DNA of 40,977 nt, taken from the NCBI GenBank assembly GCA_014859465.1, contig JACUUF010000024.1, positions 1-40,977 of the forward strand, read 5' to 3'. This stretch comes from Methyloprofundus sp. Its GTDB lineage: Bacteria > Pseudomonadota > Gammaproteobacteria > Methylococcales > Methylomonadaceae. The position numbers and the translations under genes are program-made. Numbering within the stretch: position 1 is the stretch's first letter; the number at the start of each line of letters is the position of its first letter. The notes under the pieces are model-generated. The model was not told where the DNA came from and did no database searches. It saw only the letters and a program-made list of their open reading frames with translations. This document shows positions 9,954 to 26,709 of the stretch, piece after piece.

Positions 9954-10037
9954 GTGCTGGTTTTTTATTTATGATGATAGCTTAGGGGTTGCTTTGTTTT
10001 TTATGGCACAATAGGCAACTTTTGCACTAAAAGAATT

Positions 10038-11003: not shown

Positions 11004-11014
11004 GGTGAGTAAAT

Positions 11015-11986
11015 ATGGATGATGACCAATTAATGGCCAAGGCTTGCGAAGTTATTAATATAGAAGCGCAGGCTGTTAGTGCGCTAAGCGCCAAAATTGA
11101 TGAAAATTTTATTCAAGCTTGCCATTTAATCGCGGCTTGTAAGGGTCGAGTTGTGGTCACAGGCATGGGTAAGTCGGGGCATATTGCAAGGAAGATTGCT
11201 GCAACTTTGGCGAGTACCGGAACGCCGGCTTTTTTTGTGCATCCGGGTGAGGCTAGTCATGGTGATTTAGGTATGATTACTCGACAGGATGTCGTATTGG
11301 CTTTATCTAATTCAGGTGAGACGGCTGAGATTGTCACGCTATTGCCCTTAATTAAACGTCTTGCAGTCCCGATGATAGCTATGACGGGTAGGCCTGACTC
11401 TACTCTGGCTAAATTTTCTTCGGCACATATTAGTAATGCTGTAGAAAAAGAGGCCTGCTCTTTAGGTTTAGCTCCTACTGCGAGTACCACGGCTGCACTT
11501 GTTATGGGCGATGCGCTTGCGGTCACGTTGATGACCTTACAGGGATTTACGCGTGATGAGTTTGCATTATCTCATCCTGGGGGTAGTTTAGGGCGGCGTT
11601 TGCTGGTTTTAGTGAGCGATATTATGCATGCCGGCGATCAATTGCCTGTTGTTTTGGGTGATGTTGGTGTTATGGATGCGTTGCTTGAAATGACGGCTAA
11701 AAAGTTAGGTATGACCTCGGTTGTTGATGCACAAGGTTGTTTGTTGGGTATTTTTACGGATGGCGATTTGCGTCGATTATTGGCCAAATCAATTGATCTT
11801 AATACTGCGCAGGTGGCTGATGTCATGACTGCAAATTGTCAGGTGATACGCTCGGATATTTTAGCGGCGCAAGCGATGCAAGTAATGGAAGAAAAGAAGA
11901 TTAATGCTTTAATCGTAGTCGATGATGGCAATAAAGTCGTTGGTGCGCTTAATATGCACGACTTAATTCATGCGGGAATAGTCTGA
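11015..11986 (+). CDS. kdsD: Arabinose-5-phosphate isomerase KdsD
   Basis: Interconverts ribulose 5-phosphate and arabinose 5-phosphate, the first step toward Kdo, the inner-core sugar of LPS. The 323 residues comprise an N-terminal SIS sugar-isomerase domain (about 35-170), with GMGKSGHIARKIAATLASTG, FFVHPGEASHGDLGM and ALSNSGETAE, followed by two CBS repeats (about 205-320). The HPGGSLGRRLL linker is typical of KdsD/KpsF. A purine-rich AAGGTGAG ahead of the ATG is a good ribosome site. kdsC follows after one base, so both Kdo steps are made together next to the LPS export genes. Confidence 0.96.
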   Translation: MDDDQLMAKACEVINIEAQAVSALSAKIDENFIQACHLIAACKGRVVVTGMGKSGHIARKIAATLASTGTPAFFVHPGEASHGDLGMITRQDVVLALSNSGETAEIVTLLPLIKRLAVPMIAMTGRPDSTLAKFSSAHISNAVEKEACSLGLAPTASTTAALVMGDALAVTLMTLQGFTRDEFALSHPGGSLGRRLLVLVSDIMHAGDQLPVVLGDVGVMDALLEMTAKKLGMTSVVDAQGCLLGIFTDGDLRRLLAKSIDLNTAQVADVMTANCQVIRSDILAAQAMQVMEEKKINALIVVDDGNKVVGALNMHDLIHAGIV

Positions 11987-11987
11987 T

Positions 11988-12515
11988 ATGCAAGATAGAA
12001 CGGAAAAAGCTAAAAAAATTAAAGTGTTAATTTTGGATGTTGATGGGGTTTTAACAGATGGCAAGCTTTATTTTGACCAGCAGGGTCAGGAGTATAAATC
12101 CTTTAATGTGCGTGATGGTTTAGGGATTAATTTAGTGCAAAAATCGGGTATCAAAGTGGCGATAATTTCTGGTCGAGGCTCTAAGCCGGTTGCTTTACGT
12201 ATGAAAATGTTAGGTATCGATTTGGTCTATCTTGAGCAGCTAGATAAGGCTGTTGCATTACAGGATATTATGCTAAAAACCGGCTGTACTCTTGAGCAAA
12301 TAGCGCATGTGGGCGATGATTTAATTGATTTGCCGGTATTAACCCAGGTCGGTTTAGCGATTGCTGTGCAAGATGCTAATGAACAAATATTACCTTATGT
12401 AGATTGGCAGACGCGGCAACTTGGTGGGCTGGGCGCGGTGCGTGAGGTCTGTGATTTTATTTTGCAAGCGCAAGGCAAGATGGCTGTGCTAGTCGAGTCT
12501 TATAAGGCTGGCTAA
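11988..12515 (+). CDS. kdsC: Kdo-8-phosphate phosphatase KdsC
   Basis: HAD-superfamily phosphatase that removes phosphate from Kdo-8-P to give Kdo. At 175 residues it has the small, cap-less form that works as a tetramer. Motif I is LDVDGVLTDGKLYF, with the nucleophile and acid/base aspartates in DVDG. Motif II is the IISGRGS region, and motif III/IV is HVGDDLIDLPVL. The stop codon overlaps the lptC start (TAATG), so lptC is translationally coupled. In E. coli the same order kdsD-kdsC-lptC-lptA-lptB is kept. Confidence 0.96.
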   Translation: MQDRTEKAKKIKVLILDVDGVLTDGKLYFDQQGQEYKSFNVRDGLGINLVQKSGIKVAIISGRGSKPVALRMKMLGIDLVYLEQLDKAVALQDIMLKTGCTLEQIAHVGDDLIDLPVLTQVGLAIAVQDANEQILPYVDWQTRQLGGLGAVREVCDFILQAQGKMAVLVESYKAG

Positions 12516-13084
12516 TGATGTTGCCGCAACATAAAGGGGCTATTTTTTTGTGTTTGATTTTCTTGGCTTCGATGTGGGCGGCTAATCGTGGCGATGATAA
12601 TAGTGTTCAGCAGCCCTTAGAAAAATCTAGGCATAGTGCAGACCATTTTGCGGTAAATTATAGTAAAACACAGATGAGTGAATTGGGTGTTGTAAAAGAA
12701 AGATTAGAGGCTGATTATGCCGCGCATTACAGTGATAATGATGAAACGCAGTTGACTAAGCCGATAATGACCTTATATCAAGGTCTTTTGCCGCCTTGGA
12801 TTGTTCGTGCACAGGCAGGGATTGTTACTTCAGCGGGCGAGAAGGTGTTTTTGCAAGGGCGCGTGACTATTGATCGTGCTGCTACAGAATCGGTGCGCGA
12901 AGTTAATATTAAAACAACGAATTTACGCATAGAGCCGAAACGGAATTATGCAGAAACGGATGATTGGGCTGAATTAGTGAGTGAATCCGATAAGATGTCG
13001 GGAACAGGAATGAGGTTGGTTTATCAAGATCCTTTGTATATTGAGTTATTAGCAAATGTTAAAGGCAGACATGCATATGAATAA
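12515..13084 (+). CDS. lptC: LPS export protein LptC
   Basis: Bitopic inner-membrane protein that receives LPS from the LptB2FG ABC transporter and passes it to periplasmic LptA. About 189 residues, with one N-terminal transmembrane helix (about 8-24, AIFLCLIFLASMWAA) and then a periplasmic domain ending in the beta-strand region typical of DUF1239. Sequence conservation in this family is low. The name rests on size, anchor and exact position between kdsC and lptA. Two adjacent ATGs (12515 and 12518) are possible starts; the first overlaps the kdsC stop. Its last codons overlap the start of lptA. Confidence 0.9.
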   Translation: MMLPQHKGAIFLCLIFLASMWAANRGDDNSVQQPLEKSRHSADHFAVNYSKTQMSELGVVKERLEADYAAHYSDNDETQLTKPIMTLYQGLLPPWIVRAQAGIVTSAGEKVFLQGRVTIDRAATESVREVNIKTTNLRIEPKRNYAETDDWAELVSESDKMSGTGMRLVYQDPLYIELLANVKGRHAYE

Positions 13085-13583
13085 ATGGTTATTGAACATA
13101 TTTTTCACATTGATATTGTCTTATTGTGTGCATGGATATGCGTTAGAAAGTGATAATAAACAGCCAATTACTATTGAGTCAGATTCGGGTTTTTATGATG
13201 ATAAAAAAGGCCTGAGTACTTATACTGGCAAGGTGGTTATTATTCAAGGGAGTATGCGCTTAGATGCCGATAAAGTTGTGGTCTATTTAGAGAATAGAGA
13301 AATAAATAAAATGATTGCGACTGGTGCGCCAGTAAAATTTCAGCAAACACCTGAAGCGGGCAAAGAAGAGGTGCACGGTAATTCTTTAATTGCCGAATAT
13401 TATCCGAAAAATGAATTATTAGTTATGATGCAAAAGGCGGTGGTCTGGCAGGGTGGCAATAGCACCGCTAGTGAAAGAATAGAATATGATCGTGTCAGCG
13501 AGGTAGTTAAGGCTGGACAAGTGGGGTCATCAAGTAAACGTGTGCATGTCATTTTGCAGCCTAAAAGTGAGTCAAATAAGTAA
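13071..13583 (+). CDS. lptA: LPS transport periplasmic protein LptA
   Basis: Periplasmic OstA-like beta-jellyroll protein that forms the bridge carrying LPS from LptC to LptD. About 170 residues with a cleavable signal peptide ([18 protein letters not shown], cut probably after Ala near residue 25). The mature part begins with [20 protein letters not shown], matching the family pattern of overwriting Asp/Tyr strands, and continues [20 protein letters not shown]. Start choice: ATG at 13071 lies 5 bp after AAAGG; ATG at 13077 is an equally reasonable alternative. The frame could open at 13056, but that adds residues before the signal peptide. It overlaps the lptC end. Confidence 0.93.
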
Positions 13584-13585
13584 TT

Positions 13586-14311
13586 ATGGCTATTTTGTCA
13601 GCAAAAAATATTGGCAAGACTTATGGTAAGCGTACTGTAGTTGATGATGTGTCTTTGCATGTCGGTAGTCGTGAGATTGTTGGTTTATTAGGGCCAAATG
13701 GCGCGGGTAAAACCACTAGTTTTTATATGGTAGTTGGCCTGGTGCGTGCTGACTATGGGCATATTTTTTATGACGATAAAGATATTACTCAATACCCAAT
13801 GCATATACGCGCTAAGATGGGGGTAGGATATTTGCCGCAGGAAGCTTCAGTCTTTCGTAAGTTAAGTGTTGAAGATAATCTGCGTGCCGTATTGGAACTG
13901 CGAAAAGAGCTGAGTAAGGAAAAAATAGAGCTAATTATTGATGAATTATTAGCTGAGTTTAGTATTTCGCATATTCGCCATAATATCGGCATGAGTTTGT
14001 CCGGTGGTGAGCGTAGAAGAGTTGAAATTGCTAGGGCTTTGGCGACAGATCCTGAGTTTATTTTATTAGATGAGCCTTTTGCGGGGGTTGATCCAATTTC
14101 GGTGATTGAAATTCAAAAAATTATCGCTCATTTAAAAAATAGAAATATAGGTGTGTTGATTACTGAGCATAATGTGCGTGAGACCTTAGGTATTTGTGAT
14201 CGGGCTTATATTTTAAATGCTGGACAGGTCATTGCTGAAGGCTCTTCGGCTGATATTGTCGCTAATGAAGAAGTGCGACGCGTTTATCTGGGCGAAAATT
14301 TTAGTCTTTAA
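13586..14311 (+). CDS. lptB: LPS export ABC transporter ATPase LptB
   Basis: Cytoplasmic ATPase of LptB2FG, which extracts LPS from the inner membrane. 241 residues, the usual length. Walker A is GPNGAGKTT, the Q-loop lies in [13 protein letters not shown], the signature is [15 protein letters not shown], Walker B is [13 protein letters not shown], and the switch histidine is in LITEHN. The gene begins 2 bp after lptA and is followed 49 bp later by rpoN. lptF and lptG are not in the window, as is normal for gammaproteobacteria, where they form a separate pair. Confidence 0.97.
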
Positions 14312-14360
14312 GGGATGATTTATGATGTTTTTTTGTTTGATCTCAAGGTAAGCTAACTGA

Positions 14361-15812
14361 ATGAAACAGTCTTTGCAGCTCCGTATGGGTCAGCAGTTGT
14401 CTATGACTCCCCAATTGCAGCAGGCAATTAAGTTACTGCAGTTATCAACGCTCGATTTGCAGCAAGAAATTCAGCAGGCATTGGATTCAAATATGATGCT
14501 GGAGGTTGTTGAAGATGAGGCTTCCTCTTTAAATGAGCACAAAGTCGTTGAAAATTCTGTAGATAGAACTGACCAGCTGAGTAGTGAAGGCTCGCAAACA
14601 GATGTGCCTGATGAGTTGCCTACCGATAGTTCTTGGGAGGATGTGTTCGAATCTGTACAGATGGACGCGGCAGCCGGACCCGCTGGTGATATGCCAGATT
14701 TTGAAGTACAGCGCAGTAAAGCCGATAGCTTACAGGATCATTTGTTATGGCAAATGGAGATGGCGCCTTTTACTGAAAGGGATCGCGCTATAGCTATGGC
14801 GATTATTGATTCGATAAATGGTGATGGTTATTTGAATGCTACACCAGAGGATATTTATCAAGGCTTAGTTGAACAGTTGGAAGATCTGGAAATAGATGAG
14901 CTGTATGCAGTTTTGCATCGGGTGCAGCGATTTGATCCTGCCGGGGTTGCTGCGGAGAATTTGCAGGATTGTTTGCGCCTGCAATTAGTACAACTACCTG
15001 ATGCTACGCCTTTTAAAGCCCAAGCTTTAGAGTTGGTCGAGCGATTTTTGGATTTATTGGCAGCACAAGATCAAGTGAAATTGATGCGTAAGTTGGCTGT
15101 TTCAGAAACTAAATTGACGGAAATTATTGCTTTAGTGCGCTCTCTGGATCCGCAGCCTGGGCGATCTATTGAAGAGAGTGAGTTCGAATATATTGTGCCT
15201 GATTTGTTTGTTTTTAAGGCTAACGGGGAATGGCGAGTCGAATTAAATCCGGATATTGCACCTAAATTACGCGTTAACCCTTTTTATTTAAGCATGATTA
15301 AGCGTGCAGATAATAGTAAGGATAATGTCTGCATGAAAGAGCATTTGCAGGAAGCAAGGTGGTTTATTAAAAGTTTACATAGCCGAAATGATACTTTGTT
15401 ACGCGTTGGGCGTAGTATTATTTCTAAGCAATTAGATTTCCTTGAACATGGGGCGATTGCCATGAAGCCTATGGTGTTAAGGGATATTGCAGAGGAATTG
15501 GAGCTGCATGAGTCAACTATTTCTCGGGTAACTACGCAGAAATATATGCATTTACCCAATGGCGTGATTGAATTTAAGTATTTTTTTTCCAGCCATGTTT
15601 CGACATCTGCTGGAGGAGAATGTTCGGCTACCGCTATTAGGGCGTTTATTAAAGAGTTGGTTAGTACAGAAAATCCAGCAAAGCCATTAAGCGATAGTAA
15701 AATTGCGGATTTATTGGAGGAAAAGGGAATTAATGTTGCAAGGCGAACCATTGCTAAGTACCGCGAAGCAATATCTATTCCATCGTCTAGTCAAAGAAAG
15801 CGACTTTTGTAA
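14361..15812 (+). CDS. rpoN: RNA polymerase sigma-54 factor RpoN
   Basis: Alternative sigma factor that recognises -24/-12 promoters and needs AAA+ activators; in proteobacteria it serves nitrogen assimilation and other stress or motility genes. 483 residues with the standard layout. A glutamine- and leucine-rich activator-responsive region I occupies the N-terminus (QLSMTPQLQQAIKLLQLST near 13-31), followed by an acidic linker (about 52-110) and the core-binding and helix-turn-helix regions (ELELHESTISRVTTQKYM). The RpoN box is at 460-468 (ARRTIAKYR). The linkage lptB-rpoN-hpf is conserved from Escherichia to Pseudomonas. No deletion is apparent. Confidence 0.97.
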   Translation: MKQSLQLRMGQQLSMTPQLQQAIKLLQLSTLDLQQEIQQALDSNMMLEVVEDEASSLNEHKVVENSVDRTDQLSSEGSQTDVPDELPTDSSWEDVFESVQMDAAAGPAGDMPDFEVQRSKADSLQDHLLWQMEMAPFTERDRAIAMAIIDSINGDGYLNATPEDIYQGLVEQLEDLEIDELYAVLHRVQRFDPAGVAAENLQDCLRLQLVQLPDATPFKAQALELVERFLDLLAAQDQVKLMRKLAVSETKLTEIIALVRSLDPQPGRSIEESEFEYIVPDLFVFKANGEWRVELNPDIAPKLRVNPFYLSMIKRADNSKDNVCMKEHLQEARWFIKSLHSRNDTLLRVGRSIISKQLDFLEHGAIAMKPMVLRDIAEELELHESTISRVTTQKYMHLPNGVIEFKYFFSSHVSTSAGGECSATAIRAFIKELVSTENPAKPLSDSKIADLLEEKGINVARRTIAKYREAISIPSSSQRKRLL

Positions 15813-15867
15813 GAAAGTAGTATAATCTTGTTTTATTATTTTTTGAGCACTATTAGGAGTTAAAAAT

Positions 15868-16161
15868 ATGCAAGTTAGCATAACGGGTCACCATATTGAA
15901 GTAACAGAAGCAATGAAGCAGCATGTAGAAGAGAAAATCGGTAAATTGAAACGTCATTTTGATCATGTAACTGATGTGCATGTTATTTTGACGGTAGAAA
16001 AATTAGAGCAAAAAGCAGAAGCGACAGTGCAAATCAGTGGTGCAACATTATTTGCTGATGATGTTCAAGATAATATGTATACAGCTATTGATAATATGGC
16101 TGATAAATTAGATCGTCAAATTATTAAATATAAAGAAAAAATTCAAGCACACCGCAGTTAA
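15868..16161 (+). CDS. hpf: Ribosome hibernation promoting factor, short form
   Basis: Small RaiA/HPF-family protein (97 residues) that binds the decoding channel of the 30S subunit in slow growth and promotes 100S dimers or inactive 70S. The fold signature is visible from MQVSITGHHIEVTEAMKQHVEEKI through KLKRHFD and VILTVEKLEQ. It lacks the C-terminal dimerisation domain of long HPF, which fits gammaproteobacterial short HPF. A good AGGAG lies 8 bp before the ATG. A TATAAT just after the rpoN stop (near 15823) might give it its own promoter. ptsN, normally next, is missing. Confidence 0.93.
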   Translation: MQVSITGHHIEVTEAMKQHVEEKIGKLKRHFDHVTDVHVILTVEKLEQKAEATVQISGATLFADDVQDNMYTAIDNMADKLDRQIIKYKEKIQAHRS

Positions 16162-16167
16162 TTTGTG

Positions 16168-16215
16168 CTGCATGCATGGATTTAATATGAATAAATAGCA
16201 AGCCCATGCATGCAG
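16168..16215. repeat. Perfect 12-bp inverted repeat after hpf
   Basis: CTGCATGCATGG (16168-16179) is matched exactly by CCATGCATGCAG (16204-16215), with a 24-nt A/T-rich loop. The arms have no T-run behind them, so an intrinsic terminator is doubtful. It could be an RNA stability element for hpf mRNA, a protein-binding site or part of a small RNA. It starts 7 bp after the hpf stop. Confidence 0.6.
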
Positions 16216-16228
16216 AAATGAGTTTATC

Positions 16229-16252
16229 AAGAATATAGAGGACTATATTCTT
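16229..16252. repeat. Perfect 10-bp hairpin before rapZ
   Basis: AAGAATATAG (16229-16238), loop AGGA, CTATATTCTT (16243-16252). It lies 44 bp upstream of rapZ. It resembles a compact RNA stem with a tetraloop. Because the loop holds AGGA it could hide or present a ribosome-site-like motif, although it is too far from the rapZ ATG to be its own Shine-Dalgarno. Confidence 0.55.
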
Positions 16253-16296
16253 CGTTTAGGCTTCATTCCTGAAGGATAGTATTCCCTACTGAGACT

Positions 16297-17154
16297 ATGA
16301 AATTATTGATTTTGACTGGTTTATCCGGCTCAGGAAAAAGTATTGCTTTAGACACGCTTGAGGATTGCGGATTTTACTGTATAGATAATTTGCCACTTAC
16401 CTTATTAGATGATTTCATCGCTAATGTGATGCAGCAAGATCCTAAGACTTATAACAAAGTAGCGATTGGCATTGATGCGCGAAACCAAGGTGAAAGTTTA
16501 TATGCCTTTGCTGATAAGTTGACTTTAATAAGAGCGCAAGGTATCGGTTGCGATGTGATTTATATGCAGGCAGAGGCTGAAGTTTTACTTAAGCGCTATA
16601 GTGAAACAAGACGACGACATCCGCTAACTGATTTTAATGTGCCATTAAAAGAAGCAATTAACATCGAGAAAGATATGCTTAAGTCGGTCGCAAAATGTGC
16701 CGATTTAGTGGTTGACACCAGCCGTACTCACTATCATCAATTAAGAGAACTGATTAGGCAGTATGTACAAGAAAGCACGCAGCAAAAAATTTCCATACAA
16801 ACCCAATCTTTTGGCTTTAAGCATGGCTTACCTTTAGACGCCGACTTTGTCTTTGATGCGCGCTGTTTACCTAATCCATATTGGAGTCCCGAGCTTCGAG
16901 GGTTTACTGGGAAAGATCAGCCGGTAATCGATTTTTTAAGTTCAGAATCAATAGTTATAGAGTTCTTTCAAGATATTTCAGGCCTTTTAGAGCGCTGGAT
17001 TCCACACTTTGAGAAGGAAAATCGTAGTTATTTGACTGTTGCTATCGGTTGTACCGGCGGGCAACATCGTTCGGTATTTTTAGTGGATAGTCTAGCGCGA
17101 TACTTTCAGGGCAAGGCATTCAATGTCATTATCAGGCACCGAGAGTTACCGTGA
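16297..17154 (+). CDS. rapZ: RNase adapter / P-loop protein RapZ
   Basis: P-loop protein that in E. coli delivers the small RNA GlmZ to RNase E and so controls GlmS and amino-sugar supply for cell-wall synthesis. 285 residues. Walker A GLSGSGKS is at 8-15 and a Walker-B-like region is near DLVVDTSR. The conserved C-terminal domain contains DARCLPNPYW (187-196) and GCTGGQHRS (251-259), implicated in metabolite and RNA binding. The usual partners ptsN and ptsO/npr are absent on both sides, and GlmY/GlmZ are not expected outside enterobacteria. The regulatory target in this organism is therefore unknown. Confidence 0.95.
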   Translation: MKLLILTGLSGSGKSIALDTLEDCGFYCIDNLPLTLLDDFIANVMQQDPKTYNKVAIGIDARNQGESLYAFADKLTLIRAQGIGCDVIYMQAEAEVLLKRYSETRRRHPLTDFNVPLKEAINIEKDMLKSVAKCADLVVDTSRTHYHQLRELIRQYVQESTQQKISIQTQSFGFKHGLPLDADFVFDARCLPNPYWSPELRGFTGKDQPVIDFLSSESIVIEFFQDISGLLERWIPHFEKENRSYLTVAIGCTGGQHRSVFLVDSLARYFQGKAFNVIIRHRELP

Positions 17155-17205
17155 AAAAGGTGGCTTGCCTGCTTAGTCGGTTGCTAGGAAATAATAAGGA
17201 TAGAT

Positions 17206-18558
17206 ATGCAAGTAAATAGACCGCAAGATCATTCTGATATACATTTAGAACGAATTATGAAGCACTTAGATGATGGCGCGCTTTATGATGCGCGTAATCA
17301 TTTGTTAAGTTTGTACCCGGCTGAAATTGCTTTATTACTTAGGTCATTGCCTATGGATTATAGGTATCAACTTTGGAGTATTGTTGCGCCAGAAGTGATG
17401 GGGCAGATTTTAGTGATGCTTCAGGGTGAAGTGCGCGTTGGGCTTATCGAGCATACTTCTGCTCAGGATTTGGTGGTCGGTGCAAGCGAATTAGATGCGA
17501 GAGATTTAGCTGATTTGGTGGGGGATTTTTCTGCTGAAGTCAGAGATAAGGTTTTGCACAACAAGAAAGATAGCCGACTTGAGGCGGCACTGGCTTATGA
17601 TGGGCATACTGCTGGCGGTCTAATGACACTGGATGTTTTGACTATCAGGGCAGATGTCACCATAGATGCCGTTTTGCGCTTATTGCGCAAGCAAAAGAAA
17701 ATGACCGGAAACATGGATAGTCTATTTGTTGTAGATCGCACAAATCATTATCAAGGCATGTTGTCTGCGGCTACGATTTTGACGAGTGACCCTCTTATGG
17801 TTGTTGCTAAATTAATGGATGTTACTACTATGGCAATTCCTTTGAATATGCCAGTTTCCGAAGTGGCCATGATTTTCGAACACAGGGATATTTTATCAGC
17901 TGGTGTTGTCGATGAGCAGGGTCTGCTAGTAGGCCGAATTAAAGTCGATGATGTGGTTGATGTTATTCGAGAGCAAGCTGATCACGCTATTTTTAGCTCG
18001 GCAGGTTTGGATGAGGAACATGATTTGTTCTCGCCCGTTTTGGTTAGTGCTAAGCGACGAGCTGTATGGTTGGGTGTGAATTTATTTACCGCCTTCTTAG
18101 CCTCATGGGTCATTGGTTTATTTGAAGCGACGATTGATGAAATTGTTGCTTTAGCGGTATTGATGCCAGTGGTTGCAAGTATGGGGGGGATTGCCGGTAG
18201 TCAAACCTTGACTTTGGTGATTCGCGGTCTAGCATTGCATCAAATTAGCTCGGCTAACGTTATCTCCTTTTTGTTTAAGGAGTTGGCCGTTGGCGCGTTA
18301 AATGGTATTGTTTGGTCTATTGTTGTTGCTTTGATTGCCGCAGCCTGGTTCGCGGATATGCCATTAGGCATGATGCTCGGCGGGGCAATGATTATTAATT
18401 TAACTTGTGCAGCTTTTGCTGGCGTTATGATTCCTTTGTTTTTACAAAAAAGAGGCGTAGATCCAGCGTTGGCGGGAGGCGTATTATTAACTACTGTAAC
18501 TGATGTGATTGGCTTTATGTCCTTTTTAGGGTTGGCGACAATTTTCCTATTGGCTTAA
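17206..18558 (+). CDS. mgtE: Magnesium channel/transporter MgtE
   Basis: Mg2+-gated Mg2+ channel of the inner membrane; homologues also pass Co2+. 450 residues. The N-terminal superhelical domain (about 1-130) includes GGLMTLDVLT at its junction with the tandem CBS domain (about 140-255). A connecting helix then leads to about five transmembrane helices (about 285-450) with PVVASMGGIAGSQTLTLVIR and the pore-end DPALAGGVLLTTVTDVIGF, where the conserved TD(V) aspartate sits. AAGGA 9 bp ahead of the ATG is a good ribosome site. The 51-bp gap from rapZ is too short for a Mg2+ riboswitch. It ends 35 bp before the Cys-rich peptide gene and may be co-transcribed with it. Confidence 0.96.
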   Translation: MQVNRPQDHSDIHLERIMKHLDDGALYDARNHLLSLYPAEIALLLRSLPMDYRYQLWSIVAPEVMGQILVMLQGEVRVGLIEHTSAQDLVVGASELDARDLADLVGDFSAEVRDKVLHNKKDSRLEAALAYDGHTAGGLMTLDVLTIRADVTIDAVLRLLRKQKKMTGNMDSLFVVDRTNHYQGMLSAATILTSDPLMVVAKLMDVTTMAIPLNMPVSEVAMIFEHRDILSAGVVDEQGLLVGRIKVDDVVDVIREQADHAIFSSAGLDEEHDLFSPVLVSAKRRAVWLGVNLFTAFLASWVIGLFEATIDEIVALAVLMPVVASMGGIAGSQTLTLVIRGLALHQISSANVISFLFKELAVGALNGIVWSIVVALIAAAWFADMPLGMMLGGAMIINLTCAAFAGVMIPLFLQKRGVDPALAGGVLLTTVTDVIGFMSFLGLATIFLLA

Positions 18559-18593
18559 AACCGTCTTTAAATAATTATATTGAGGAAATAAAA

Positions 18594-18962
18594 ATGAGTA
18601 TAAAAAAATCACCTTTAGCAATTGTAGTGGGAACCACATTATTTTCAGGCTTGGCTGTAACAGCAGTTCAAGCGGCAGAATTTGTTGGTGTTGAGAATGA
18701 TCCATTTGCACTGACTGAATTAGCTAATGGCTATATGCAAGTTGCACAAGCTGATAAGTCTAAGCAAGGCGATACAAAAATGAAAGCAGGCGCTTGTGGA
18801 GAAGGCAAGTGTGGCGCAAGCATGACTCCTCCTGGCGCCTTGGAAAAAACCGCAGAAGGTAAATGTGCAGGTAATAAACCTGTGCCTGCAGAGAAAAAAG
18901 CTGATGCGAAAGCTACGGAAGGCAAATGCGGTGAAGGGAAGTGCGGAAGTAGTATGCAGTAA
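18594..18962 (+). CDS. HvfA-like Cys-rich secreted peptide with EGKC motifs
   Basis: A 122-residue precursor. It has a clear Sec signal (residues 6-27, ending VQA before AEF), a short conserved-looking segment NDPFALTELANGYMQVAQA (35-53), and a Lys/Gly/Ala-rich tail with five cysteines: 68, 73, 91, 112 and 117. Four of them lie in EGKC motifs (70-73, 88-91, 109-112, 114-117). This layout matches my knowledge of HvfA-type precursors, in which the cysteine of EGKC is turned into an oxazolone-thioamide copper ligand by a DUF692 (MNIO) enzyme with a partner protein. Those enzymes (HvfB/HvfC) and HvfD are not adjacent: mgtE precedes it and the dcw cluster follows. It may be modified in trans, or be an unmodified metal-binding protein. 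A strong GAGGAA ribosome site and a downstream terminator support a real gene. Confidence 0.8.
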   Translation: MSIKKSPLAIVVGTTLFSGLAVTAVQAAEFVGVENDPFALTELANGYMQVAQADKSKQGDTKMKAGACGEGKCGASMTPPGALEKTAEGKCAGNKPVPAEKKADAKATEGKCGEGKCGSSMQ

Positions 18963-19003
18963 GGCGTAAATATTGCCAGAATAATTACTGGCGGCGTGAT
19001 TTT

Positions 19004-19046
19004 AAGCTCATAAAGTGCACTTATGTGACATTTTATGAGCTTTTTT
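19004..19046 (+). terminator. Rho-independent terminator after the Cys-rich peptide gene
   Basis: AAGCTCATAAA (19004-19014) pairs with TTTATGAGCTT (19032-19042), 11 bp, with a 17-nt loop. The T-run to 19046 completes a standard terminator. It closes the rapZ-mgtE-peptide transcript and separates it from the dcw cluster. Confidence 0.88.
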
Positions 19047-19261
19047 ATTGCCTGTATTTGTTGTAGCGCAGGGGGGGGAGGTTTTTACTTAATCCCTTGT
19101 AAAGGGATGGTTATATTTTGGTGCTATAAATTACATTAACAAAATTTTTTAAATACTTGATAGCTATTGTTATTTTTTCAATAAAAAAAATATGGGTGTG
19201 AGCTATAACATAGTGATATTTAAGAAATATTGAGAAAAATAATGTTTATTTTTAAACAGCC

Positions 19262-19290
19262 TTGACTAACGAATGCTAGAAAACTATAGT
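19262..19290 (+). promoter_or_regulatory. Sigma-70-type promoter of the dcw cluster
   Basis: TTGACT (19262-19267) and TATAGT (19285-19290) are separated by exactly 17 bp. The A/T-rich DNA upstream could add an UP element. Transcription would begin near 19297, immediately before the MraZ-type repeats, as at the known Pmra promoter of E. coli. Confidence 0.75.
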
Positions 19291-19297
19291 TATCGAC

Positions 19298-19337
19298 AGT
19301 GGTGAAAAGTGGCGAAAAGTAGTTTTTTTTGGGAAAG
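19298..19337 (+). promoter_or_regulatory. MraZ-binding direct repeats
   Basis: Four 10-bp-spaced units start at 19298, 19308, 19318 and 19328: AGTGGTGAAA, AGTGGCGAAA, AGTAGTTTTT, TTTGGGAAAG. The first two are near identical, the third is degenerate, and the fourth carries the classic TGGG. MraZ is known to bind TGGGN5-type repeats in this position and repress its own operon. The spacing is seen directly; binding is inferred. Confidence 0.7.
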
Positions 19338-19362
19338 CAGGGGTTATTTCAAGGGGAAAAGG

Positions 19363-19830
19363 ATGTTTCGAGGCGTCACTGCAATTAATTTAGATGCAAA
19401 AGGGCGTTGTGCAATTCCTACTCGGTATCGGGAGGAGTTACAGTTGTGCTGTGAGTGCCAATTAGTTGTAACTGTCGCTGTAAACGAACGCTGTGTTGGT
19501 GAGCCTGGGTGTTTGTGGATCTATCCCCTGCCTGAATGGAATAAATTAGAGCTTACTATTAGTAAGCTGCCTACCTTGGATAAAATGGCTGGAAAATTAC
19601 GCCGTTTTGTTATCGGTTATGCTGCTGAGGCAGAAATGGACGCTCAGGGGCGAATCTTATTGTCAGAAAAACTAAGAAAATTTGCAGGAATGGAAAAAAA
19701 ACTGATTTTAGTCGGTCAGTTGAATAAGTTTGAAATATGGAATGAAGCCTCTTGGAACGCCAAAGAAGATGAATGGATGTGTGGCGACCAAGATGATGAT
19801 TTGAGTGAAGTAAGTAATTTATCTTTTTAA
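19363..19830 (+). CDS. mraZ: Transcriptional regulator MraZ
   Basis: AbrB-like (SpoVT fold) DNA-binding protein, first gene of the dcw cluster, which represses its own promoter. From the chosen start it has 155 residues with the two tandem half-domains: the N-terminal MFRGVTAINLDAKGRCAIPTRYRE and the C-terminal AEAEMDAQGRILLSEKLR. The DxKGR and DxQGR motifs are the DNA-facing parts. The frame can be opened at a GTG at 19309, but that would translate through the operator repeats. The ATG at 19363 follows AAGGGG by 6 bp and gives the universal MFRG start. The C-terminal tail is acidic (GDQDDDLSE). Confidence 0.95.
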   Translation: MFRGVTAINLDAKGRCAIPTRYREELQLCCECQLVVTVAVNERCVGEPGCLWIYPLPEWNKLELTISKLPTLDKMAGKLRRFVIGYAAEAEMDAQGRILLSEKLRKFAGMEKKLILVGQLNKFEIWNEASWNAKEDEWMCGDQDDDLSEVSNLSF

Positions 19831-19841
19831 TTGAGAAAATC

Positions 19842-20765
19842 ATGCATTTACCGGTGTTATATAGCGAAGCTTTGCGTGAATTAACAATTAAACCTGATGG
19901 GATTTATATCGATTGTACTTTTGGTCGGGGTGGACATAGTAAGGGGCTGCTGGAGCAATTAAGCTCTAAGGGAAAATTGCTGGCTTTAGATAGGGATTTG
20001 GATGCGATTAACTCTGATATTGCGCAGGCGTTATCTAAAGATCCGCGTTTTGAGTTAGAGCATTGTTGTTTTTCACAGTTACAAAATGTCGTAAAGAAAC
20101 GCGGATGGATGGGCAAAGTTGATGGGATTCTCATGGATTTTGGAGTTTCTTCCCCGCAATTAGATAATGCCCAACGTGGTTTTAGTTTTATGCAAGATGG
20201 TCCGCTAGATATGCGTATGGATTGTAGTACTGGAATGTCGGCAGCTGAATGGTTGGCTAGTGTCTCAGAACAAGATTTAGTACGTGTGCTTTATGATTAT
20301 GGTGAAGAGCGCTTTGCTCGGCGCATTGCCGCTGCTGTCGTAGCGCAGAGATTAAAAGCGCCTTTGCAAACAACGAAGCAATTTGTTGACTTATTGGTTG
20401 AGGCAATTCCCTTTAGAGAAAAGCATAAGCACCCCGCTACACGTAGTTTTCAGGCAGTAAGAATAGCGGTAAATCATGAGTTAGATGAAATAAGCACTGT
20501 ATTAGAGCAAGCCGTTAATGTTTTGGCGAGTGGTGGTAAGCTTGCGGTTATTTCTTTTCATTCTCTAGAAGATAGAATTGTTAAGCGTTTTATTCGGGAT
20601 CAGTCGCGGGGCAAATATAACGCCGCTAAACTACCTATACAGGCTGATGAGTTGGCTGCAATAAGGCTAATAAAGAGTGGTAAAGCTATTAAGGCTGGGG
20701 CAGAAGAGTTAGCACGGAATACTAGGGCGCGCAGTGCTGTTATGCGTGTTGCAGAACGTAAGTAA
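19842..20765 (+). CDS. rsmH: 16S rRNA m4C1402 methyltransferase RsmH (MraW)
   Basis: SAM-dependent enzyme that methylates N4 of C1402 in the ribosomal P site. 307 residues. The SAM-binding motif is near 24-33 (DCTFGRGGHS). The family blocks LMDFGVSSPQLDNAQRGFSF, GPLDMRMD, HPATRSFQAVRIAVN and VISFHSLEDRIVKRF are all present. The short C-terminus is rich in Arg. It begins 11 bp after mraZ with only a weak GAGAAA ribosome site. Position two of dcw is its invariant place. Confidence 0.97.
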   Translation: MHLPVLYSEALRELTIKPDGIYIDCTFGRGGHSKGLLEQLSSKGKLLALDRDLDAINSDIAQALSKDPRFELEHCCFSQLQNVVKKRGWMGKVDGILMDFGVSSPQLDNAQRGFSFMQDGPLDMRMDCSTGMSAAEWLASVSEQDLVRVLYDYGEERFARRIAAAVVAQRLKAPLQTTKQFVDLLVEAIPFREKHKHPATRSFQAVRIAVNHELDEISTVLEQAVNVLASGGKLAVISFHSLEDRIVKRFIRDQSRGKYNAAKLPIQADELAAIRLIKSGKAIKAGAEELARNTRARSAVMRVAERK

Positions 20766-20774
20766 TACTGAATT

Positions 20775-21038
20775 ATGGAACGCATGTTTGTCGTGGTTTT
20801 ACTAATAATGTTGCTTGGTTCGGGCTTGGCGGTTATTTATGCTAAGTATAATTCTCGACTGGTTTTTATTGAGATACAAAAATCTGAGCAAGAGCTGGAT
20901 CGATTGGAGGTCTTGTGGGGAAGGTTAACACTCGAAGAGCGGATGTTGGCAGAACATAATAGAGTTGAAGAAACGGCTAGAAAATCAATGGGTTTAGTAG
21001 AATTAGACCGAAAATCTATCGTTTATATAAAACTTTAG
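20775..21038 (+). CDS. ftsL: Cell division protein FtsL
   Basis: Small bitopic divisome protein, 87 residues. It has one N-terminal transmembrane helix (about 4-23, MFVVVLLIMLLGSGLAVIYA) and a periplasmic coiled coil with regularly spaced hydrophobics (FIEIQKSEQELDRLEVLWGRLTLEE, about 31-55). In E. coli it forms a complex with FtsB and FtsQ and activates FtsWI. Sequence is poorly conserved, and the call rests on topology, size and location between rsmH and ftsI. The conserved ARKSMGL in the tail is common among FtsL proteins. The gap to ftsI is 2 bp. Confidence 0.92.
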   Translation: MERMFVVVLLIMLLGSGLAVIYAKYNSRLVFIEIQKSEQELDRLEVLWGRLTLEERMLAEHNRVEETARKSMGLVELDRKSIVYIKL

Positions 21039-21040
21039 CT

Positions 21041-22795
21041 ATGTTGGGCACTGAAAAGAAAAAGAATACTAGTAAAACAGGCGATTTTTCAGGAAGAAGA
21101 AAGCTAGTGCTTGTTTTTATGTTCCTTGGGATGTGTGTGCTTATTCTGAAAGCAATCCAGTTGCAAGTTATGGATACCCAGTTTTTGCAGAAACAAGGGC
21201 AAAGTAGGCAGGTTGGTACGGTTAATATTGCCGCTTATAGAGGGCAAATTAAGGATCGTAACGGTGAAAGCCTCGCTGTTAGTGCGCCAGTGGAATCAAT
21301 TTGGATTAACCCGCAGTATTGTAAAGAGACAGAGATTGATGAATCCAAATTAGTCTGTAGTGATTTAACGGACATCCGGTTTAAGCAAGCGGCGGAACTT
21401 TTGGATATGCCTTTAACTCAGTTGCTAAAAGCTTTTGATGCTTCAACAAATAAGCAATTCGTTTATTTAAAAAGACATATTGAGCCTAGCGTAGCGGCCG
21501 AAGTTAAGGTCTTAGATTTGCCGGGTATAGGTTTTATCCGAGAGTTTAAGCGTTTTTATCCTGCCGGAGAGGTCGCTGCCCACCTGCTAGGCTTTACCAA
21601 TATAGATGATAAAGGCCAAGAGGGTTTAGAGTTAATGTATGATGCAAGTTTGAAGGGCGTTGCTGGCAGCAAACGAGTCATTCGTGATGGTAAACGGCGT
21701 ATTATTGAAGAACAAAACCTAGAAAGCATTAAGCAGCCTATAGATGGACAAGATTTACAGTTAAGTATTGATGAGCGTTTACAGTATTTAGCTTATAAAG
21801 AATTAAAAGCTGGCGTAGTAAAACATAAGGCGAAATCTGCTTCTTTGGTCATATTGGAAGCGGAAACAGGGAATGTTTTAGCGGTTGTTAATCAGCCATC
21901 TTTTAATCCTAATATGCGTAAAAACTTAAAGATATCGCGTTATCGAAATAGAGCGATAACCGATGTTTATGAGCCTGGCTCAACGATGAAACCTTTGGTG
22001 GTGGCGGCAGCGTTAGAGGGTGGTTTTATTACATCGAATCAGTTATTTGATACCCGAGACTTTAAAATTAAGGGTAAGTGGGTTAGAGACGAGCATAAGT
22101 ATGGCACCATTGATTTAACTACCGTGTTAAAAAAATCAAGTAATGTGGCGGCCAGTAAAATTGCTTTCTCTATGCCGCCCGACTATTTTTGGCGATTCTA
22201 CCATGACCTTGGCTTCGGTGTATCGCCTGGAGTTAATTTTCCTGGTGAAGCGAGTGGCACTTTACCAGAGTATTCTAGTTGGAGTGATTTTGAACAGGCT
22301 ACTTTGTCATTTGGTTATCGAGTCTCCATGTCAACCTTGCAGTTGGCACGTGCTTACACCGCGCTAGCAGATGATGGGGTGTTGCATTCCTTAAGTTTGC
22401 TGAAGCGTGAAAAAGATGAATATGCTACACAGGTTTTATCGCCTAAAACAGCCATAAAAGTAAGAGCAATGATTGAGCAGGTTGTCCAGCAAGGCGGTAC
22501 AGCGACTAGGGCGAGAGTTGATGGATATCGAGTGGCGGGCAAAACGGGAACGGTGAAGAAAGTCAGTAAATCTGGTGGTTATGGTGATGATTATTTGTCT
22601 GTGTTTGTTGGCATGGCACCAGCCAGTGACCCTAAATTGGTCATTGCTGTCATGGTCGATACACCGCAAGGAAATGAATATTATGGTGGTTTAGTGGCTG
22701 CTCCCATTTTTGCAAAAGTAATGGGTGAGGCTTTAAGGGTTTTAGGCATTGCTCCTGATGAAGAGCAATCCATGTCTGTATTATTGACTAAGTAG
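21041..22795 (+). CDS. ftsI: Septal transpeptidase FtsI (PBP3)
   Basis: Class B penicillin-binding protein that cross-links septal peptidoglycan. 584 residues. A cytoplasmic N-terminus precedes one membrane anchor (about 21-41). A pedestal domain with RGQIKDRNGESLAVS (67-81) leads to the transpeptidase domain. Catalytic motifs are S314-T-M-K317, S367-S-N369 and K502-T-G504, all intact. The GFTNIDDKGQEGLELMYD block is typical of FtsI. It works with FtsW, encoded downstream in the same run. The start ATG at 21041 is 2 bp after ftsL ends. Confidence 0.97.
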   Translation: MLGTEKKKNTSKTGDFSGRRKLVLVFMFLGMCVLILKAIQLQVMDTQFLQKQGQSRQVGTVNIAAYRGQIKDRNGESLAVSAPVESIWINPQYCKETEIDESKLVCSDLTDIRFKQAAELLDMPLTQLLKAFDASTNKQFVYLKRHIEPSVAAEVKVLDLPGIGFIREFKRFYPAGEVAAHLLGFTNIDDKGQEGLELMYDASLKGVAGSKRVIRDGKRRIIEEQNLESIKQPIDGQDLQLSIDERLQYLAYKELKAGVVKHKAKSASLVILEAETGNVLAVVNQPSFNPNMRKNLKISRYRNRAITDVYEPGSTMKPLVVAAALEGGFITSNQLFDTRDFKIKGKWVRDEHKYGTIDLTTVLKKSSNVAASKIAFSMPPDYFWRFYHDLGFGVSPGVNFPGEASGTLPEYSSWSDFEQATLSFGYRVSMSTLQLARAYTALADDGVLHSLSLLKREKDEYATQVLSPKTAIKVRAMIEQVVQQGGTATRARVDGYRVAGKTGTVKKVSKSGGYGDDYLSVFVGMAPASDPKLVIAVMVDTPQGNEYYGGLVAAPIFAKVMGEALRVLGIAPDEEQSMSVLLTK

Positions 22796-22799
22796 GCAT

Positions 22800-24260
22800 A
22801 TGTGGTTATCTGAGTTATTAGCAGGGGCTGCAGAGGTACAGCAAAATATAGAATTTACACATATTGCTTTGGATAGTCGCGCAGTTGGCAGGGGTGGTGT
22901 TTTTTTTGCCTTAGCTGGCGCTAAGGTGCATGGTCTGAGTTTTGCGCATCAAGTTCAGCAGCATGGTGCTGTCGCTATTATTTATGATCCGGCGCATGGT
23001 GGTGATTTATTGGCTGAGTCTGTCACTGGTTTAAGTTTAATTGCTGTTGAGCAGTTAACCAATAAATTAGGTGAGTTGGCCGCTAGATATTATGCTTGGC
23101 CTACTCAGAAGTTGCAGGTAATAGGCATTACCGGAACCAATGGTAAGACCTCATGCAGTCAGTTTTTAGCGCAAGTGCTCGATGACTGTGCGGTGATTGG
23201 CACGCTTGGCTGGGGTATTTATCCGAATTTACAAAGAACCTGCAACACGACGCCTGATGCGTTAATGTTACAAAAAATCTGTGCTGAGTTTGTCGCGCAA
23301 AATATAAAACATGTTGCGCTGGAAGTGTCATCGCATGGCTTAGGGCAAGGGCGCGTTAATGCTATTAACTTTAGCGGCGCAGTGTTTAATAACTTGAGTC
23401 GTGATCATTTAGATTATCACGGCAGTTTGGAGGCTTATTTTCAAACTAAATTACGTTTAGTGCAATGGCCAGATTTGCAGTATGTCGTGGTCAACTTGGA
23501 TGATGCTTATGCGCAGCGGGTTTTAGCGGTTATTTCTAGGCAAGTGCCAGTATTTACTTATAGCCTGCAAAATAAAAGCTATGCCAAAGATACCAGCATT
23601 CAAGTAACAAATGTGCAATATTCGCTATCGGGTATTGAATGTGACCTATTTTGGCAGGCGCAGCAACATAAGCTTAAGGTTGCTTTGTTAGGTGATTTTA
23701 ATTTGCAGAATTGTTTGGCGGTATTGGCGGTATTGTTGGCGATGGGCAAACCTATTGCTGAGTGTTTGCAGGCGATAGAAAGAATTAAACCGATTATTGG
23801 CCGTATGGAGTGCTTTACAGGGGATATGACTAAGCCAATGGTGGTCGTCGATTATGCACATACACCGGACGCATTGGAAAAAGTATTAACAACTTTAAGG
23901 CGGCATTGCACGGCTAAGTTAACGGTTATTTTTGGTTGTGGTGGTGACCGAGATAAGGGTAAGCGCGCACAAATGGGGCGTATTGCTGAAGCGCTTGCCG
24001 ACTGTGTAATTGTTACTGATGATAACCCGCGATTTGAAGTTGGGCAGGCCATTATTGATGAGATTATCGCCGGCCTTTCAATGACCAAGATTTGTGTGAT
24101 TAATGATAGAAAAAGTGCCATACAGCAAGCGATTTTAATGAGCTCAGATAAGGATATAGTTTTAATTGCTGGCAAAGGTCATGAGGATTATCAAGAGATA
24201 AAAGGCGTACAACTGCCCTTTAGTGATCGTGAAATTGTAAAGGAATTATTGGATTTATGA
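22800..24260 (+). CDS. murE: UDP-MurNAc-tripeptide synthetase MurE (meso-DAP type)
   Basis: Adds the third amino acid to UDP-MurNAc-L-Ala-D-Glu. 486 residues. The ATP loop TGTNGKTS is at 111-118. The DNPR box at 408-411 (TDDNPRFE) is the marker for meso-diaminopimelate rather than lysine as substrate, so the wall has ordinary Gram-negative peptidoglycan. VEVSSHGL-like ALEVSSHGL and NNLSRDHLDYH, contacting substrate and Mg2+, are kept. Its stop overlaps the murF start by 4 bases (ATGA). Confidence 0.97.
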   Translation: MWLSELLAGAAEVQQNIEFTHIALDSRAVGRGGVFFALAGAKVHGLSFAHQVQQHGAVAIIYDPAHGGDLLAESVTGLSLIAVEQLTNKLGELAARYYAWPTQKLQVIGITGTNGKTSCSQFLAQVLDDCAVIGTLGWGIYPNLQRTCNTTPDALMLQKICAEFVAQNIKHVALEVSSHGLGQGRVNAINFSGAVFNNLSRDHLDYHGSLEAYFQTKLRLVQWPDLQYVVVNLDDAYAQRVLAVISRQVPVFTYSLQNKSYAKDTSIQVTNVQYSLSGIECDLFWQAQQHKLKVALLGDFNLQNCLAVLAVLLAMGKPIAECLQAIERIKPIIGRMECFTGDMTKPMVVVDYAHTPDALEKVLTTLRRHCTAKLTVIFGCGGDRDKGKRAQMGRIAEALADCVIVTDDNPRFEVGQAIIDEIIAGLSMTKICVINDRKSAIQQAILMSSDKDIVLIAGKGHEDYQEIKGVQLPFSDREIVKELLDL

Positions 24261-25621
24261 TTTTAATGACTTTGCAAGAAATAGCTGACGCTGTACAAGG
24301 ACAATTAATCGGTGTTGATGCAACGGTTTCGGGTGTTTGTATTGATACGCGCATTTTGCTAGCCGGTGATTTGTATGTCGCTGTTAAAGGCGAGCAATTT
24401 GATGGCCATGATTTTATTGCCCAAGCTGAAGCGATGGGGGCATTAGCCTTATTGGTTGCCAAACAAGTTGTTACTGATAAAGCGCAAATTATTGTATCGG
24501 ATACACGTTTAGCTTTGGCTAAGTTGGCTGGCGCTGTTAGAGATAAAGCACAAGTAAAAGTGTGTGGCATTACAGGGAGTAATGGCAAAACGACAGTAAA
24601 AGAGATGGTCGCCACTATTTTGGCGGTTAATTATCGGGTTTTGTTTACTCAGGGTAATTTTAATAACGATATAGGCGTGCCTTTAACTTTATTGCGTTTG
24701 CAAGCGGCGAATGAATTTGCGGTAATAGAAATGGGCGCAAATCATACCGGTGAGATTGCTTATACCAGTGCTTATGCACGACCTGATGTGGCTGTTATTA
24801 CTAATGTTGGTGCCGCGCATATTGAAGGCTTTGGCAGTGTCGCAGGCGTAGCGCAAGCGAAAGCAGAAATTATTGCGTCATTAACTGAGCAAGGTGTTGC
24901 GATTTTAAATGCAGATGATGCTTTTTTTGCGCAGTGGCTCGCGATTGCTGGGCAACGTAAAGTGCTTACCTTTGGCTTGCATGCCAATGCTGATGTCACA
25001 GCAGAAAATGTCGTAACCGGTTTTGCAGGTGAGCAGTTTTGCACGCAGTTTGATTTGCTTAGTGACAATAAGCGAGTGCCGATACGATTGGCTTTGGCTG
25101 GCGAGCACAATGTTAAAAATGCTTTGGCTGCTAGCGCCGCCTGCTTGGCGTTAGGTATTGAAATAAAACAGATTCAAGCGGGTTTAGAGCAAGTTACAGC
25201 GGTAAAAGGCCGCTTGCAGTTAAGTGTCACTAAAACTGGATATAGCGTTATTAATGATACTTATAATGCTAATCCTGATTCATTGGCCGCTGCTTTAGAA
25301 GTACTCAAAAATTGTAAAGGTGAGTTATGGCTGGCTTTGGGTGCATTCGGTGAGTTGGGTGCAGAGAGCGAACAATTACATAGCGAAATGGGCGAACAGA
25401 TTAAACGGGCAGGTGTCACGCGCTTATTTGCGACCGGGACACTGGCTGAAAATACGGTAAGAGCCTTTGGTGCTGGTGCCGAGTTTTTTGCACAGCAAGA
25501 AGATTTGATAGTAGCAGTACAGCAATCAATCTGCTCTAAGGTTGTGTTATTGGTCAAAGGGTCAAGAGCACAAAGAATGGAAAATGTGGTTAATGCATTG
25601 GTGAATAAGGTGGAAAAATAA
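24257..25621 (+). CDS. murF: UDP-MurNAc-tripeptide:D-Ala-D-Ala ligase MurF
   Basis: Adds D-Ala-D-Ala to complete the UDP-MurNAc-pentapeptide. 454 residues, normal length. The ATP loop TGSNGKTT is at 106-113, followed by [13 protein letters not shown] and [10 protein letters not shown], the conserved MurF substrate-binding blocks. [15 protein letters not shown] in the C-terminal domain is diagnostic. I use the ATG that overlaps the murE stop; a second Met three codons later would also work. The gap to mraY is 2 bp. Confidence 0.97.
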
Positions 25622-25623
25622 GC

Positions 25624-26706: not shown

Positions 26707-26709
26707 CAG

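Follow-up and report, generated by a model that had tools for sequence, protein, structure and literature searches.

A conserved HvfA-type precursor gene behind mgtE stands apart from the HvfB/HvfC pair in Methyloprofundus-type methanotrophs

Introduction

What becomes of a peptide precursor whose gene stands far from the enzymes expected to modify it? The question is raised by hvfA1, a gene in a 40,977-nucleotide stretch of Methyloprofundus sp. DNA (contig JACUUF010000024.1, hereafter the window), which the initial annotation described as an orphan HvfA-like copper-peptide precursor without its maturation enzymes. HvfB requires HvfC, and the pair turns the cysteines of HvfA into 5-thiooxazoles with a mass change of −4 Da each (PMC13419390). 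The oxazolone-thioamide product named in the initial annotation is thus outdated, the cysteine product now being assigned as 5-thiooxazole (PMC13419390, PMC13097082). Stand-alone precursor genes are already in print, as are several precursors per single MNIO/partner pair, and two options have been posed for the stand-alone genes: modification from another locus, or none (PMC12452194).

Results

The features of the gene itself are as follows.

18594..18962, forward strand: hvfA1, HvfA/Buf_EGKCG-type precursor standing alone, 122 aa (open reading frame; NF050137; NF050188 below cut-off; dN/dS)
18582..18586, forward strand: GAGGA, Shine-Dalgarno-like (sequence; upstream alignment of 16 loci)
18594..18674, forward strand: predicted Sec signal peptide, residues 1-27 (by eye and hydropathy)
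18702..18737, forward strand: PF..TEL..GYM segment, residues 37-48, a putative recognition segment (conservation)
18795..18944, forward strand: five-cysteine core with GACGEGKCG, EGKCAGN and EGKCGEGKCG (cysteine positions)

The hvfA1 reading frame is real. It opens with ATG, GAGGA lies 7 bases 5' of the start, and an AGGAA-type sequence occupies the Shine-Dalgarno position in most orthologues of the 16-locus upstream alignment. EGKC occurs four times (residues 70, 88, 109 and 114), whereas 100,000 shuffles of the 95-residue mature protein never gave more than two and gave two in just 3 cases. The four motifs had been noted before, with the fifth cysteine, in GACGEGKCG, left out; the cysteines stand at residues 68, 73, 91, 112 and 117. 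In an alignment of 21 sequences C68, C73 and C91 were invariant and C117 was kept in at least 90%. Against the two closest orthologues, the sole pairs with a dS to the window below 1, dN/dS was 0.086 and 0.072, indicating purifying selection; since most other pairs for hvfA1, and likewise for hvfBC and hvfA2 below, had dS near or above 1, close pairs alone are quoted.

Upstream of the cysteines the protein shows the layout of a signal peptide, with MSIKK followed by a hydrophobic stretch and VQA/AE (by eye and hydropathy) and with A27 nearly invariant in the 21 sequences; judged by this layout it is probably secreted. HvfBC prefers HvfA peptide that still bears its signal sequence (PMC13419390), and by analogy the signal peptide of hvfA1 possibly doubles as leader for HvfBC. 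P37, F38, E42, G46, Y47 and M48 were invariant in the same alignment, and a PF....L..GY-type segment was found in 44 of 49 precursor rows far from HvfB and in 34 of 36 near it. AlphaFold2, run with the 21 aligned sequences, gave a mean pLDDT of 48 and no fold, so that the protein is predicted to be disordered.

Family profiles uphold the assignment as an HvfA-type precursor at the domain level. NF050137 (NCBIfam KCGExKCG_twice domain) matched with 30.1 bits against a cut-off of 19.5, while the strict HvfA equivalog NF050188 was failed with 40.6 bits against 95. No Pfam family passed for the protein, the sole listing being Synapsin_N (E 0.33), and PF10048 (DUF2282, Buf1) was absent from these matches.

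The neighbourhood agrees with the initial annotation, which placed mgtE before the gene, the dcw cluster after it and a strong terminator in between.

17206..18558, forward strand: mgtE, 3' end 35 bp before hvfA1 (Pfam MgtE, MgtE_N, CBS)
about 19004..19042, forward strand: predicted intrinsic terminator, hairpin and T run 3' of hvfA1 (RNA fold)
19309..19830, forward strand: mraZ reading frame from its first start codon, the real start perhaps later (by eye; position before rsmH-ftsL-ftsI)

The fold of positions 18963-19055 gave −35.7 kcal/mol and z −6.07, a strong hairpin 3' of hvfA1 and 5' of mraZ, beyond which the dcw genes follow (mraZ and dcw named by eye). An automated search for terminators in relatives was imprecise, choosing wrong hairpins in some loci, the window's among them, and no count is drawn from it. 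A promoter scan of 17000-19500 found five promoter-like sites against 5.8 in shuffles. With no excess over shuffles, a promoter of hvfA1's own was rejected and we infer read-through from the mgtE side, with mgtE and hvfA1 possibly in one transcript. Genes named by eye as lptB, rpoN, hpf and rapZ lie upstream of mgtE on the same strand (13586-17154), so hvfA1 may end a long housekeeping transcript. No hvfB-, hvfC- or hvfD-like gene was seen by eye among reading frames of at least 80 aa in 10000-28000, as the initial annotation had stated.

Probing with the window's proteins showed that this arrangement is not peculiar to the window. The mgtE-hvfA pair was kept in 16 of the 18 genus genomes (G000-G017), with mgtE directly 5' of the orthologue in all 16 loci (split over two frames in G011); no orthologue was found in G006 and G008, which are 66% and 86% complete. 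mraZ lay 3' of the gene in 14 of the 16 loci; that of G007 is a contig end, and mraZ was not found in the stretch fetched for G012. Among the 21 best matches, those from outside the genus (G019, G023, G025, G028, G033) had neighbours other than mgtE and mraZ. hvfA1 is a member of a conserved subfamily with a locus conserved through the genus.

The host was regarded earlier as a probable methanotroph, and this is borne out: the genome holds a PF02461 (PmoA/AmoA) gene, and the closest named loci include a bin titled 'bacterium' (88%), several Methyloprofundus bins and the gill-symbiont methanotrophs of Bathymodiolus puteoserpentis (87%) and B. platifrons (70%). A few bins are titled Methylomonas. 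On these matches the window's genome is that of a Methyloprofundus-type methanotroph.

The absence of maturation enzymes held locally and failed for the genome as a whole. One PF05114 and one PF09836 match were present (E <= 0.001), as overlapping genes hvfB and hvfC on another contig (C162), where a DAHP synthase gene (aroF) lies next to them in divergent orientation. The initial annotation had taken the lack of any DUF692 enzyme in the genome as the outcome that would speak against it; one HvfB and one HvfC were found. HvfB exceeded the curated HvfB-family maturase cut-off of 360 with a score of 444, and HvfC the HvfC cut-off of 142 with 288. The suggestion that enzymes may act in trans gains a candidate pair. 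As closest solved structures, 3BWW was obtained for HvfB and 3DEE for HvfC. The DVNN and VDTHG motifs, which contain the counterparts of N175, D242 and H244 (alignment to 3BWW), are kept in HvfB; alanine variants of these three residues are inactive in HvfB (PMC13419390). Compared with two relatives, dN/dS of HvfB/HvfC was 0.046-0.103, again purifying selection.

The genome bin is given as 7% contaminated. Contamination as the source of the contigs with hvfBC and hvfA2 was rejected: in the tree this HvfB falls within the genus clade, next to the copies of G005 and G008, and the SucD encoded beside hvfA2 shares 84-97% identity with 11 copies from the genus, so that C162 and C294 very likely belong to the genome.

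A search for further EGKC precursors, as had been proposed, gave one, hvfA2 (L086:7777-8460, contig C294 of the window's genome, G000). The gene lies 50 bp 3' of sucD and 5' of a hemW-like gene and encodes 227 aa with nine cysteines and Met-rich CGAMMKGKEGACG-type repeats. It has one EGKC and an N-terminal segment in common with hvfA1, and its dN/dS of 0.13 points to purifying selection; no NCBIfam or Pfam family matched at E <= 0.01. Genes of this type (typed by eye) occurred in 16 of the 18 genus genomes and adjoined sucD and/or hemW in 13 of these 16, while neither was in the stretch fetched for those of G001, G003 and G009.

Could hvfBC have another substrate? C162 continues for more than 5 kb on either side of the pair, and a hidden precursor next to it was rejected, there being no EGKC-like peptide among cysteine-containing reading frames of 12-150 aa in L085, 6300-8500. 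A DUF2282 (PF10048) bufferin was rejected as well, with no match in the genome at E <= 1. Precursor-like matches were restricted to hvfA1 and the sucD-linked hvfA2. Taken together, these results leave the distant precursors as the only visible substrates of HvfBC. Two DoxX matches (C71, 53.2 bits; C264, 23.7 bits and one internal stop) were rejected as a partner; neither shares a contig with a precursor or with HvfBC.

A third kind of EGKC precursor, with a lipobox-like cysteine (for example LVTGC, LTTGC or LTAGC, by eye), was seen in the genus as eight genes in seven genomes (L186:1768-2076; single genes in L179, L184, L185, L192, L199, L217 and L226); none was found in the window's genome. 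Lipoprotein signals are reported for about 16% of Buf2 bufferins (PMC12452194), and the genus genes may encode membrane-anchored copper peptides.

In order to count the split layout, 61 genomes (the window's own and 60 others) were surveyed, with a precursor match (E <= 0.01) in 51, PF05114 in 57 and PF09836 in 58. None of the 21 best precursor matches (at least 83 bits, one per genome) stood beside HvfB; all were more than 3 kb from any MNIO place or on a different contig. The remaining 65 precursor rows gave 64 proteins, 36 within 3 kb of an MNIO place and 28 not, where rows are not equal to genes (one G031 gene makes two rows, one near row is a stub in G015) and 75 of the 77 MNIO places were used, two partial G031 places at contig starts being left out. 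Separate contigs of a draft assembly are weak evidence of separation when taken alone; where precursor and MNIO gene share a contig, about 89 kb (G009), 342 kb (G010) and 237 kb (G025) lie between them.

The named collection gave the same picture, with HvfB in the fetched stretch for none of 49 hvfA1-type loci (L106-L154) as against 17 of the 22 with lower scores (L155-L176), of which those without HvfB in reach include three Methylovulum and one Methylophaga. One of the hvfA1-type loci, L140, is from Methylomonas sp. LW13, a cultured methanotroph whose genome is complete. Among loci flanked by 2 kb or more on each side, the numbers were 0 of 38 for the hvfA1 type and 11 of 15 for the more distant precursors. 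Because the genomes are related, these counts lack independence and Fisher p-values are given no weight; moreover, the search patterns, built from the stand-alone alignment, favour the stand-alone subfamily. The CAGN motif alone was rejected as a mark of the stand-alone type, being present in six precursors near HvfB too; the subfamily split rests on the full-length score. The word orphan holds for the distance from the enzymes and undersells the gene, which is one of a conserved subfamily that no examined locus places beside HvfB.

Separation did not mean absence of the enzymes, as 19 of the 21 genomes with an hvfA1-type gene also had PF05114 and PF09836. Neither domain was found in G013 (90% complete, 7% contaminated) and G023 (98% complete, about 180 contigs). 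HvfB and HvfC adjoin each other in relatives, so a single assembly gap could lose both. In G023 an ECF-sigma-like gene (by eye, L083:6242-6811) accompanies the precursor at 6918-7301, which it follows on the locus.

Within the genus PF05114 was present in 17 of 18 genomes, G013 being the exception. In 12 of the 17 the main HvfBC adjoined aroF and had no detected precursor beside it; neither aroF nor a precursor was detected at that of G002, G012 and G017, and in G004 a precursor adjoins HvfB. G015 has a 61-residue cysteine-free precursor stub just before hvfB (L102:4822-5007) with a Cys-Gly stretch in another frame, which is either a cis precursor in decay or a fault of the assembly. G002 and G010 carry in addition a second, divergent and complete hvfABC with its own precursor (L089:2167-2559; L098:7872-8237) and an HvfB 60% identical. 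The 17 main genus HvfB form a clade (99/97) within the HvfB of other family genera, many of which have an adjoining precursor. The tree (52 rows, bootstrap not settled) was used solely to place this clade, and its automatic cis/no-cis labels are imperfect, as 8 of the 24 no-cis rows do have an adjoining precursor (G010_L098, G032_L218, G034_L234, G039_L195, G046_L220, G051_L206, G054_L034, G060_L201). From this nesting it is likely that the cis precursor was lost in the genus, with G004 as an exception or a regain.

Discussion

With respect to the question posed at the outset, we consider it probable that the distant HvfBC modifies hvfA1 in trans and that the product buffers periplasmic copper. 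Recognition, trans modification, product chemistry, export, copper function and co-transcription are inferred here by analogy with characterised systems. On this reading hvfA1 would be a precursor of the captophorin/oxazolin (Buf_EGKCG) class, transcribed probably from the mgtE side and ending at the hairpin. The cytosolic HvfB-HvfC from the aroF locus would recognise the signal peptide, and perhaps the PF..TEL..GYM segment, and would oxidise the five core cysteines to 5-thiooxazoles, at about −4 Da each and up to about −20 Da in total. FonBC accepts Ala in the third and fifth positions of the repeat (PMC13097082), and none of the five cysteine contexts of hvfA1 conflicts with this; a shortened FonA with one repeat was left unmodified and one with two repeats was modified (PMC13097082), so HvfBC may pass over the lone EGKCAGN cysteine. 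Modification would precede export, and Sec export and cleavage would release a disordered periplasmic peptide of roughly 9.5-9.6 kDa that buffers copper. Its calculated average mass is 9599.8 Da without modification and 9579.6 Da with full modification for cleavage behind residue 27, or 9528.7 and 9508.5 Da for cleavage behind residue 28. hvfA2 would be served by the same pair. Against trans modification stand the score of hvfA1 below the HvfA equivalog cut-off and the genomes G013 and G023, whose lack of HvfBC could reflect draft gaps or a gene working unmodified there.

More tentatively, and with somewhat less than even confidence, one HvfBC may be the hub for scattered precursors (hvfA1, hvfA2 and, in some genus genomes, the lipoprotein type) that sit behind housekeeping genes as a standing periplasmic copper-buffering layer. 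Both precursors of the window's genome lie close behind housekeeping genes and in no stress operon, and on this reading uncoupling in the genus would be so advanced that the main HvfBC is mostly without an adjoining substrate gene.

It is unlikely, if the best of the competing explanations, that hvfA1 is modified for a purpose other than copper detoxification, namely to provide particulate methane monooxygenase with copper, or to deal with a different thiophilic metal or with redox stress. The PmoA/AmoA-family gene of the genome fits such a role, the best 49 loci carry methanotroph, Methylococcales-level or unspecific bacterial titles, and the physiological role and metal specificity of these peptides are described as still open (PMC13097082). 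The characterised relatives, however, generally bind copper (captophorin-type peptides included) and are described as sequestering it or protecting against it (PMC12452194, PMC13097082).

That the protein works unmodified, as a periplasmic thiol/methionine metal sponge, appears improbable to us. The empty neighbourhood, the two of 21 genomes in which the HvfB/HvfC domains were not seen and the failed equivalog would suit a sponge, but the enzyme pair accompanies the gene in the other 19, and both the repeats and the N-terminal segment are kept and shared with HvfB-adjacent precursors, although free thiols alone need neither. Moreover, Antoine et al. found Buf_EGKCG without an MNIO gene in just 67 of 2,583 complete genomes (PMC12452194).

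Poorer still are the prospects of HvfBC acting on hvfA2 alone while hvfA1 has diverged to a different task. HvfB-adjacent precursors of several other family genera contain CGAMMKGKEGACG repeats, which makes hvfA2 a possible former cis substrate; on the other hand, hvfA1 has four canonical EGKC to the one of hvfA2, the N-terminal segment is common to both, and purifying selection acts on each of them (0.07-0.09 and 0.13). Finally, hvfA1 is short, repetitive and disordered (mean pLDDT 48), yet an artefact, be it a chance low-complexity frame or a pseudogene, is refuted by the shuffles, dN/dS and synteny in 16 genomes.

The locus offers a clean natural test case for the question of PMC12452194, whether precursors without an adjoining MNIO are modified from elsewhere or not. 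There is one conserved enzyme pair, next to which no substrate gene was detected, and the few candidate substrates each keep a fixed place. The value of the finding is that of a test case and not of a new principle. If modification does occur in trans, genome mining restricted to MNIO neighbourhoods misses substrates. The locus furthermore points to a copper-handling layer of methanotrophs distinct from methanobactin.

In comparison with Haemophilus influenzae HvfA/HvfB/HvfC (PMC13419390), hvfA1 shares the EGKCG-type repeats, the presence of both enzyme families and, by prediction, the signal peptide. The H. influenzae genes form one operon including a DoxX-like gene, whereas the enzymes of the window's genome are on a separate contig, and hvfA1 does not adjoin hvfB and hvfC as the precursor of an hvfABC operon does; HvfA has three AEGKCGEGKCG with six modifiable cysteines, hvfA1 five cysteines and an EGKCAGN unit. 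Fontiphorin (FonA/FonBC), a captophorin, resembles hvfA1 in its EGKCG repeats, a DUF2063-type partner and the expected 5-thiooxazole, and differs in being clustered with its enzymes (PMC13097082). The bufferins Buf1 (DUF2282) and Buf2 are secreted, MNIO-modified copper buffers as well, from precursor families different from that of hvfA1. Methanobactin (MbnA/MbnBC) is likewise a methanotroph copper peptide made by an MNIO, but hvfA1 has a predicted signal peptide and repeats, and the genome's HvfB is far below the MbnB cut-off (54 against 325).

With the Buf_EGKCG/oxazolin precursors of PMC12452194 hvfA1 has EGKCG repeats and a predicted signal peptide in common. A mid-size first-type member is modelled there as a beta-helix, in contrast to the predicted disorder of hvfA1. 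Of the stand-alone genes in that survey, some form single units and the neighbours of others are not conserved; as described there, they are not placed like hvfA1, whose locus is conserved genus-wide and defines a subfamily. Among the matches listed from the open-licence literature there was no paper on the mgtE-hvfA1 locus or its subfamily. Relative to these known systems, what is new is the conserved subfamily with its locus, and a genus whose HvfBC mostly has no adjoining substrate.
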